Assembly: GCF_001632775.1 (NCBI RefSeq)
Contig: NZ_CP015249.1
Coordinates: 2,646,686-2,710,685, forward strand
Direction: 5' to 3'
Source: Dokdonella koreensis DS-123
Lineage (GTDB): Bacteria > Pseudomonadota > Gammaproteobacteria > Xanthomonadales > Rhodanobacteraceae
DNA: 64,000 nt
Part shown: positions 8,905-56,589 of the stretch, piece by piece
Layout: every line of letters starts with the position of its first letter
How positions within the stretch are numbered: position 1 is the stretch's first letter
Notes under the pieces: generated by a model
Database searches by the model: none
Seen by the model: the letters and a program-made list of their open reading frames with translations, nothing else
What the model was told of the DNA's origin: nothing
Made by a program: the position numbers and the translations under genes

Positions 8905-8956
8905 TCCGCTCGGACGCGCGGCGGTTCGGCTTGGCCGCATCCGCTGCCGGCCGGTC

Positions 8957-9103
8957 GTCGAGAAACGACCTGGCGCGATCCATGGACGGATCGCTCGCGG
9001 AGCGACGACGCAAGCCGTCGCTCCGCGCAGTGGGTGGCGCGACTCTGCCGCGGCCGTGCGGGTCGAAAAAGGACAGGAGCGCCCTTTTTCGACATCCTGC
9101 TAG
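8957..9103 (+). repeat. Structured intergenic repeat R2, copy 1
   Basis: This ~147-bp element is shared with 56441-56589 in the same orientation. Conserved blocks in order are TCGAGAAAC, GCGATCC, a stem with loop CGCAAG, TGCCGCGG, a terminal hairpin and a final CTAG. Here the central stem is GGAGCGACG (8999-9007) with CGTCGCTCC (9016-9024). The terminal hairpin is GTCGAAAAAGG (9062-9072) with CCTTTTTCGAC (9083-9093). The second copy keeps both stems with compensatory changes. Confidence 0.75.
9062..9093 (+). terminator. Hairpin after katA, possible terminator
   Basis: An 11-bp perfect stem encloses ten bases and ends in a run of five T within the right arm. It is the 3' part of repeat R2 and lies between katA and the DUF969 gene, where a terminator is expected. 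The T run is inside the stem, so termination efficiency is uncertain. Confidence 0.45.
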
Positions 9104-31078: not shown

Positions 31079-31154
<76 letters not shown>

Positions 31155-31155
31155 T

Positions 31156-31230
31156 GGGCGGTTAGCTCAGCGGTAGAGCACTGCCTTCACACGGCAGGTG
31201 TCGCAGGTTCGATCCCTGCACCGCCCACCA
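31156..31230 (+). tRNA. tRNA-Val (anticodon CAC)
   Basis: The acceptor GGGCGGT pairs with ACCGCCC and encoded ACCA follows. The anticodon loop TTCACAC on the stem CTGCC/GGCAG gives anticodon CAC for codon GTG. The T loop is TTCGATC. It is 75 nt long. A strong terminator lies 41 bp downstream. A CAC isoacceptor suits this GC-rich codon usage. Confidence 0.97.
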
Positions 31231-56225: not shown

Positions 56226-56440
56226 GCTGAAAACTCCCCGAACGGTCCCCGATGGCGCCCGGCGCGACGCCGGCAGCGGCGGCGCGGACGAGCGGCGTGC
56301 GAATCGGCCGCCTGCTCCTGTCCCCTGAGCGGCCGGCCCGGCGTCGATCCTAGCAAACGCGTGCTCGCCGGAGCGGCGCCGCGGCGGCCACTCGCCGTCA
56401 ATCGGTGAACGATCGGCATGCCCGATATGCCGGTGGGCTG
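56226..56440. other. Intergenic stretch upstream of the protease gene, nothing recognised
   Basis: This 215-bp stretch, together with repeat R2 copy 2 that follows, makes a 360-bp gap without a gene. It should hold the protease promoter on the minus strand, but no good hexamer pair was found. No RNA gene or open frame of substance is seen. Confidence 0.5.
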
Positions 56441-56589
56441 TCGAGAAACCGCCGGCGGACGCGATCCCGGGAGGCACCGCTCACGGATCGACGGCGCAAG
56501 CCGTCGATCCGCGAAACCGGTGCCGCGGCGCTGCTGCAAACGTGTGCGTCGAGAAAAGCCGGGACAGCCGTTTCTCGACGGCGTGCTAG
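56441..56589 (+). repeat. Structured intergenic repeat R2, copy 2
   Basis: This ~149-bp element matches 8957-9103 in the same orientation. It has TCGAGAAAC, GCGATCC, the stem GGATCGACGG (56485-56494) with CCGTCGATCC (56501-56510), TGCCGCGG, then GTCGAGAAA (56548-56556) with TTTCTCGAC (56571-56579), and CTAG at 56586-56589. Both stems differ from copy 1 by compensatory changes. The CTAG contains the TAG stop of the sulfotransferase gene on the minus strand. Confidence 0.75.

Follow-up and report, generated by a model that had tools for sequence, protein, structure and literature searches.

A 152-bp repeat of Dokdonella koreensis as a probable IS5-type MITE with a covarying five-hairpin interior and candidate CsrA/RsmA-type loops

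The window analysed here, a 64,000-nucleotide stretch (C1:2646686-2710685) of the single-contig Dokdonella koreensis DS-123 genome, contains two copies of a short repeat, R2, about 47 kb apart, and raises the question of what kind of element this is and why its stems keep their pairing when their letters change. The first-pass annotation, made from the letters alone, had read these paired changes as selection for folding and had proposed a regulatory 3′ structure, a REP-type element or a small RNA. Both copies are real: in a BLAST search of the 4.45-Mb genome with copy 1, copy 2 comes up as 73% identical (E 7.1e-19), and the global identity of the two full-length copies is 0.725. Covariance model R1 (see below) places the full-length limits further to the left than first noted, at 8947-9103 for copy 1 (plus strand; 144.6 bits, E 2.5e-33) and 56430-56589 for copy 2 (plus strand; 134.6 bits, E 8.3e-31), target bases included. 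Copy 1 lies between a catalase gene (PF00199; 7441-8904, plus strand) and a DUF969 gene (PF06149; 9134-9850, plus strand), both assigned by Pfam. Copy 2 lies between a subtilase gene (PF00082; 53214-56213, minus strand) and a sulfotransferase-family gene (PF13469; 56586-57617, minus strand) whose stop it touches, these two being called with the gene finder and Pfam and having uncertain starts.

R2 has an architecture of five hairpins and a non-coding interior. In copy 1, all on the plus strand, hairpin 1 includes the left terminal repeat (8950-8973; sequence, covariation and fold), hairpin 2 carries the loop CATGGACG, which is of the CANGGANG type (8975-8994; sequence, family copies and fold), hairpin 3 has a GCAA loop (8996-9027; sequence, covariation and fold), hairpin 4 has approximate limits (9032-9056; sequence and covariation) and hairpin 5 contains AGGA in its loop (9062-9093; sequence, covariation and family copies). 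They are enclosed by a left target that now reads CCGG, a decayed YTAR as judged from the sequence and the family consensus (8947-8950), and by a right target CTAG (9100-9103; sequence and CTAG count). In copy 2, hairpin 3, again with a GCAA loop, lies at 56482-56513 (plus strand; sequence, covariation and fold), and hairpin 5, with GGGA in the loop, at 56548-56579 (plus strand; sequence, covariation and family copies), the latter being absent from the minimum-energy fold. The complement of the right target CTAG of copy 2 (56586-56589; sequence and genes) contains the TAG stop of the adjoining sulfotransferase-family gene. The stem that had been described as central is hairpin 3, which reads GGAGCGACG/CGTCGCTCC in one copy and GGATCGACG/CGTCGATCC in the other, and the stem described as terminal is hairpin 5, in which A-T becomes G-C through changes in both arms; the compensatory character reported for each was confirmed.

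Each window copy folds better than all 200 of its dinucleotide shuffles (z -4.41 for copy 1 and -4.83 for copy 2). Most hairpins form in the single-sequence fold of copy 1; copy 2 at minimum energy departs from the five-hairpin structure, its two terminal repeats pairing together with hairpin 3 retained, and a copy from the relative G046 (L112) forms all five hairpins in a single fold (z -14.1). Covariation was counted on three alignments. The first, A1, holds 23 own-genome copies aligned with MAFFT, drawn from 25 places at E≤3.3e-4 (hand count) after two short partial matches (L015 and L047) were left out; BLAST of the genome with both window copies yielded 44 matches when E was allowed to reach 10. 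The RNAalifold consensus on A1 was poor (22 pairs), and the five-hairpin structure was named from copy L042 and then counted on A1, where 42 two-sided cells stand against a shuffled mean of 19.0, with none of 500 shuffles as high. There, 85.6% of cells are paired and two-sided change is seen in 26 of the 53 pairs, and pairing falls to 34-41% when the partners are slid. On A3, made from the 30 best of the 40 own-genome places (31 matches), 111 two-sided cells compare with 37.7 in shuffles, covariation being once more in excess. Alignment A2, in which 47 of 50 chosen loci supply 49 matches at E≤1e-6 (three of the rows come from L102), has 548 two-sided cells versus 141.1 shuffled and two-sided change in 52 of the 53 pairs; 91.8% of its cells pair, against 31-45% in slid controls, a figure inflated by the fitting of A2 to the covariance model, to which A1 was not so fitted. 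This covariation above shuffles in A1, A2 and A3 strongly supports the claim that the R2 stems are under selection for folding.

A further check took 20 of the 49 positive genomes of the class survey given below, with one copy per genome, 19 of these copies being the best listed match; 30 matches had been returned, of which ten were removed as reverse-strand or overlapping shadows. These 20 copies are outside the models' sequences but were found with model R2; three reach 0.90 identity to model sequences, one (L315) is in the genome that supplied L218 of A2, and 13 show less than 0.75 identity to any model sequence. Within them, 1006 of 1036 cells are paired. Among the mismatched or wobble cells of the stems, G-U outnumbers A-C by 95 v 50 in A1, 121 v 65 in A3, 79 v 37 in A2 and 26 v 12 in the 20 further copies, these being cell counts in which the cells are not independent; counted per pair, the excess is 28 v 18 in A1 (p 0.18, not significant) and 31 v 10 in A2 (p 0.0015).

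R2 had been presented as a two-copy repeat, yet the two window copies are just 2 of 40 places in the genome, obtained from 41 rows at E≤1e-4 with model R1, which was built from A1; one row is the reverse-strand shadow of copy 2. The same model is positive at E≤0.01 in 22 of 60 genomes (the own genome and 59 relatives), with 49 matches in G046, 46 in G055 and 41 in G048, whereas blastn of copy 2 gave no match at E≤0.001 in 19 relatives. Model R2, built from A2 and distinct from the repeat of that name, identified 49 positives at E≤1e-4 among 274 sampled Gammaproteobacteria genomes under strict filters, own genome included (18%), spread over 39 of the 222 genera and, by hand count, 35 families. 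In addition, the hairpin-1 pattern occurs in at least 119 stretches of named public genomes, and the matches listed include Lysobacterales, Chromatiales, Thioalkalivibrio denitrificans, Alcanivorax, Chitinilyticum and Deltaproteobacteria and Planctomycetota MAGs; model R1, run on 80 of these loci, matched at E≤1e-6 in 58 (hand count), and locus L228, of Tahibacter soli, scores 101 bits. Four Deltaproteobacteria loci (L172, L227, L175 and L221) score 55.5-59.7 bits with this model and the others of that group lower, and the five Planctomycetota loci searched merely 22.7-29.2 bits; contamination of MAGs possibly lies behind the distant matches. Two loci of a Planctomycetota MAG (L155 and L168) have the family hairpin 1 to the left of a different interior, which ends in another palindrome flanked by TTAG/CTAG. 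Three plasmid queries and one phage query returned no R2 match.

The ends of the element were defined on near-identical copies from G046 (20 fetched) and G048 (16 fetched), in which they are crisp, with terminal repeats CAGGYTGTTGARAAA at both ends. The length is exactly 152 bases in 123 of 173 deduplicated copies, and 82 of the 173 have identical 4-bp flanks, compared with a mean of 26.4 and a maximum of 40 in 1000 shuffles. This agreement sits in the first and last base of the flank (144 v 88.7 and 151 v 106.3 of the 173 copies); the middle TA equals the consensus with little excess (131 v 126.0 and 127 v 124.5). The target is a 4-bp YTAR, mostly CTAG. Across the 173 copies, the middle TA decays so that targets read CTGG or CCAG, and the left and right flanks do not agree in these changes, which very-short-patch repair at CTAG may have caused. 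Six junctions of G048 were compared with sister genomes. L144 corresponds to a clean empty site in G057, where 204 of 204 bases align at 93% identity across a single CTAG, L097 is likewise empty there but its junction shows mismatches and a 6-base gap, and L117 is occupied; the remaining three (L143, L141 and L139) gave no clear state, and G013 offered only partial matches to the G048 junctions. One CTAG is present at the empty site L306. As a candidate empty site for L173, L226 was rejected: the element is absent from it, yet about 22 unrelated bases are present.

A partner able to mobilise such ends was sought among the loci. Within the first 271, ten inverted pairs were found, and no transposase was seen by eye in L268, L201 or L258 as part of a larger autonomous element. 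L280 (G046:C11), which first surfaced as a single-ended match, combines an R2-type end, a 360-aa transposase and a matching right end with CTAG on both sides. The transposase belongs to the IS5 family by model NF033581 (transpos_IS5_4; 261.1 bits against a cut-off of 140), falls under the cut-off of the IS1182 model (204.9 bits against 270) and carries the Pfam domains DUF772 and DDE_Tnp_1. Its residues D146, D255 and E309 are invariant in all five aligned transposases, and by motif we take them to be the DDE catalytic triad. Relatives of this transposase were found in 11 of 60 genomes (15 loci returned). Both R2-type ends with equal flanks are present in L291 and L292 (CTAG), L295 (TTAA), L296 (TTAG) and L297 (ATAG); in L294 two ends with CTAG are separated by 1.7 kb, L293 and L298 carry both ends with flanks that differ, L305 and L297 are one and the same element, and the other transposase loci show one clear end or none. 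Since R2 has terminal repeats, a 4-bp target duplication, an empty site and, in relatives, IS5 elements with the same ends, these features together identify it, on sequence grounds, as a non-autonomous, non-coding IS5-type MITE of about 152 bp. An IS5-family transposase would move it in trans. The genome of D. koreensis has no such transposase at E≤1e-20, and the transposase occurs in 5 of the 22 genomes that have the element and in 6 of the 38 that lack it. With no matching transposase and with diverged copies, the family looks like a fossil in this host.

The same features bear on the REP-type label. It holds broadly, in that R2 is a small interspersed palindromic element, intergenic and multicopy, which is what an REP/BIME element of a RAYT (Y1) transposase would be; that origin is very improbable, however, for an element of 152 bp with terminal inverted repeats, a 4-bp target duplication and an IS5-family partner. 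RAYT-associated REPs are 20-40 bp palindromes with a GTAG or CGTC tag in the passages of PMC3733652 that describe them, and R2 is without a tag of that description.

We then considered where the copies lie, with genes called by a home-made finder seeded on window genes. In the own genome, all 30 best copies (of 40) are intergenic, 11 between convergent, 17 between unidirectional and 2 between divergent genes; at least one gene 3′ end is faced by 28 of these 30, and in 19 of them the TAG stop of a neighbour falls within the 4-bp target copy by hand count. Of 70 copies examined in four genomes, 68 lie between genes (+E- 22, +E+ 17, -E- 17, -E+ 11 and 1 undecided), and no orientation bias to genes is seen among these 68. 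CTAG is rare here, occurring 13 times in the window where base composition would predict 172; stops account for 5 of these, intergenic DNA for 7 and coding sequence for 1, two of the 13 belong to the R2 copies themselves, and 5 of the 7 called TAG stops in the window are CTAG. R2 is found at gene 3′ ends because its CTAG target hardly occurs outside stop codons and intergenic DNA, and copies would settle there harmlessly in this GC-rich genome. With placement explained by the target, the location of copies does not by itself argue for a regulatory 3′ structure; the earlier interpretation is partly supported, its selection for folding strongly. A bidirectional terminator or mRNA 3′-end stabiliser, tolerated or favoured between convergent genes, would fit the 28 of 30 own copies that face a gene 3′ end, 11 of them convergent, as well as the A-rich and T-rich flanks of hairpin 5 in several lineages. 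We consider it unlikely, as target specificity yields the same placement and the conserved GGA loops are left unexplained.

Across lineages, the loops remain constant as the stem letters change. In A2, hairpin 2 has CANGGANG in 39 of 49 rows and GGA in 45 of 49, hairpin 5 has GGA in 40 of 49 and hairpin 3 a GNRA-type loop in 22 of 49; information in the loop exceeds that in the stem for hairpin 2 (1.27 v 0.94 bits per column) and hairpin 3 (0.94 v 0.79). Among the 20 further copies, GGA is present in hairpin 2 of all 20, the complete CANGGANG in 17 and GGA in hairpin 5 in 19, and the 13 copies of lowest identity carry GGA in both hairpins throughout and CANGGANG in 12 (hand count). The pattern is reversed in the own genome, where mean column identity is 0.841 for stems and 0.669, 0.706 and 0.802 for the loops of hairpins 2, 3 and 5; the GGA columns alone stand at 0.91, 0.78 and 0.78 in loop 2 and at 0.91, 1.00 and 0.83 in loop 5, and GGA occurs in 17 and 19 of 23 copies in hairpins 2 and 5, the complete CANGGANG in just 4 of 23. 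For comparison, parts of PMC7652899 give the CsrA SELEX consensus as RUACARGGAUGU, the loop repeats of CsrB as CAGGA(U/A/C)G and ANGGAN as the hexaloop of RsmE complexes. As sequences, the R2 loops match the CsrA/RsmA consensus, and CANGGANG is the published hexaloop. R2 may have a small-RNA or protein-binding role, but neither the orientation of its copies nor the keeping of their loops shows a sense-strand effect in the host.

Taken as a whole, we favour with a probability of about three in four the explanation that R2 is an IS5-type MITE moved in trans, with a hairpin interior under constraint that is possibly a CsrA/RsmA-ligand RNA. The molecule under constraint might be a read-through plus-strand RNA in which hairpins 2 and 5 are candidate CsrA/RsmA sites, with selection acting on active source copies and not on each resident; we advance this part tentatively, as the less probable side of an open choice. 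The R2 loops are strand-specific, which we count together with the G-U excess for plus-strand RNA. A different role for the same loops would be that the host keeps resident copies as 3′-UTR sponges or regulators that bind CsrA. To this could be credited the loop type itself and a csrA gene in all 22 element-positive genomes, although csrA is also present in 35 of 38 negative genomes and therefore does not discriminate. We think this quite unlikely, given that copies are without orientation bias, that host copies keep GGA alike in sense (13 of 18 and 15 of 18) and other orientation (9 of 13 and 10 of 13), that host loops are less conserved than stems and that target choice explains the placement. 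For the first three of these reasons, CsrA binding is put forward only as a hypothesis about R2, and any importance of the RNA would seem to lie with the active element and not with each resident copy. The host csrA gene itself is at C1:2632969-2633124 (minus strand), 13.6 kb before the window start.

Two further explanations address the pairing without an RNA ligand. In the first, hairpins or cruciforms would act at the DNA level, being needed for transposition or for the binding of a DNA-binding protein. The left terminal repeat forms hairpin 1, in other end types the two change together, and the absence of orientation bias would also fit; yet the insertion sequence in L280 lacks the five-hairpin interior, DNA pairing does not predict the excess of G-U over A-C, and the loops are strand-specific. 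IS5-type transposases act on double-stranded ends, which we also count against this role, and we regard it as an outside chance. In the second, the covariation would arise without selection, through template-switch correction of quasi-palindromes that alters both arms together. The complementarity of hairpin-1 inner bases runs into target bases -1 to -4 (150 v 146.7, 94 v 86.7, 74 v 66.3 and 109 v 102.8 shuffled; n=153 copies), and the loops being the less conserved part in the host fits this too. The excess over within-genome shuffles is slight, however, and ends at -4; under template switching the loops should be free to vary, but in hairpin 2 the stem is the less conserved part across lineages; nor does template switching keep five stems in register across 35 families (hand count). 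It is accordingly improbable as a source of the covariation.

A constrained interior is also suggested by its occurrence between other ends. By eye, similar interiors are enclosed by GGAAGCTCTGAA (L326, L327 and L329) or GGAACCTCTGAT (L325), the YTAR flanks being equal in all four of these loci, and further end types are GAGGTTGTCGCAAAAG-like (L328 and L331, with L330 related), CAGCTTGCTGAAAAA (L323) or mixed (L322). The interiors of nine chosen cross-type pairs are 0.56-0.79 identical, where single-letter shuffles, a weak control, give means of 0.43-0.47 (maxima 0.51-0.54), over which the lowest pair, at 0.56, barely rises; hairpin 1 identity in the same pairs is 0.41-0.54. The R2 interior thus apparently swaps terminal repeats.

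The Rfam check advised earlier produced no family assignment. At gathering score, the window contains nothing except two tRNAs, the genes for tRNA-Thr(CGU) and tRNA-Val(CAC), which adjoin each other at 31079-31230; in 15 loci scanned against Rfam 15 at a permissive threshold, no family reaches gathering score over the R2 element. Hairpins 4-5 resemble gyrA RNA (RF01740), at 33 bits (E 3.2e-5) in L329:280-365 and 26.9 bits in L163:4776-4842(-), both below the gathering score of 45, and hairpins 1-2 of L329 resemble ivy-DE (RF02999) at 26.4 bits (E 0.25), below 41.4. Other sub-threshold matches are npcTB_6715 (26.7 bits, gathering 72, E 0.0015) and TD-2 (29.8 bits, gathering 48.7, E 0.42), both in L097, and the best match of CsrB/Rsm type is RsmV (15 bits, E 0.93). 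We take the gyrA RNA and ivy-DE likenesses as a lead and not as membership. More speculatively, and with the odds against it, the GGA-loop RNA module could be an IS5-type-MITE cargo that crosses Gammaproteobacteria and at least some Deltaproteobacteria, a repeat-swapping mobile CsrA ligand of which gyrA RNA and ivy-DE are perhaps domesticated descendants.

R2 can be set beside several known systems. IS5-family insertion sequences (NF033581) share its terminal repeats and YTAR targets in L291, L292, L295, L296 and L297, and differ in their length of about 1.3 kb, their transposase gene and the lack of a five-hairpin interior. Correia/NEMIS, ERIC and other MITEs presumably differ in both ends and interior. 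They resemble R2 in being small and non-coding, with terminal repeats, and in being able to act in mRNAs, as portions of PMC10969869 relate. Another such system is MITEPsy1 of Pseudomonas syringae, which sections of PMC3189936 portray as an IS5-related MITE of 100 nt, shown to transpose, with a 4-bp duplication at CTAG or YTAA, found mainly in the P. syringae complex and with 71%-identical sequences elsewhere. It is like R2 in its IS5 relationship and 4-bp CTAG duplication and unlike it in length, and its repeat GGAAGGTCTGAAAAAGCC, as given there (PMC3189936), resembles the GGAAGCTCTGAA ends (GGAA type) of L326, L327 and L329. The CsrB and RsmX/Y/Z sRNAs, in the extracts of PMC7652899 that treat them, likewise place GGA in hairpin loops with CAGGA(U/A/C)G and ANGGAN motifs, but R2 has GGA in only two of five loops and is mobile and multicopy. 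In a literature search partly run by sequence string, no title or abstract start described the R2 element. R2 would be a new family among MITEs, themselves a known kind of element, set apart by its conserved, apparently repeat-swapping interior.

MITEs are usually regarded as deletion products whose interior has little meaning. In R2, five hairpins, the length and the loop motifs are kept across many families, and an interior of similar kind recurs with different terminal repeats around it; without selection on the interior, this is difficult to account for. If CsrA binding is shown, R2 would be a mobile element that carries a ligand for a global regulator, and it would allow one to test how RNA domains come to be spread and fixed in untranslated regions. 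In practical terms, it is a repeat family present in 18% of sampled Gammaproteobacteria genomes and without an Rfam 15 match at threshold in the sequences scanned.

Finally, some arrangements of R2 with itself or with other repeats were observed. Two tandem copies with one common 4-bp target occur at G000:C1:3135820-3136130 (L090) and at L200:1168-1349, and look as though the CTAG edge of one copy had served as the insertion site of its neighbour. L102 (G014):1501-2180 holds three element matches with a regular 260-base period. Single-hairpin forms of 51 bases, with both terminal repeats and CTAG on each side, are found at L283:2501-2551 and L284:2501-2551. A second small repeat, whose end is TGTGGTGTCCC or near it, abuts the CTAG edge of R2 in L161, L166, L134, L135 and L283, which are loci of G046/G055 and their MAG records.
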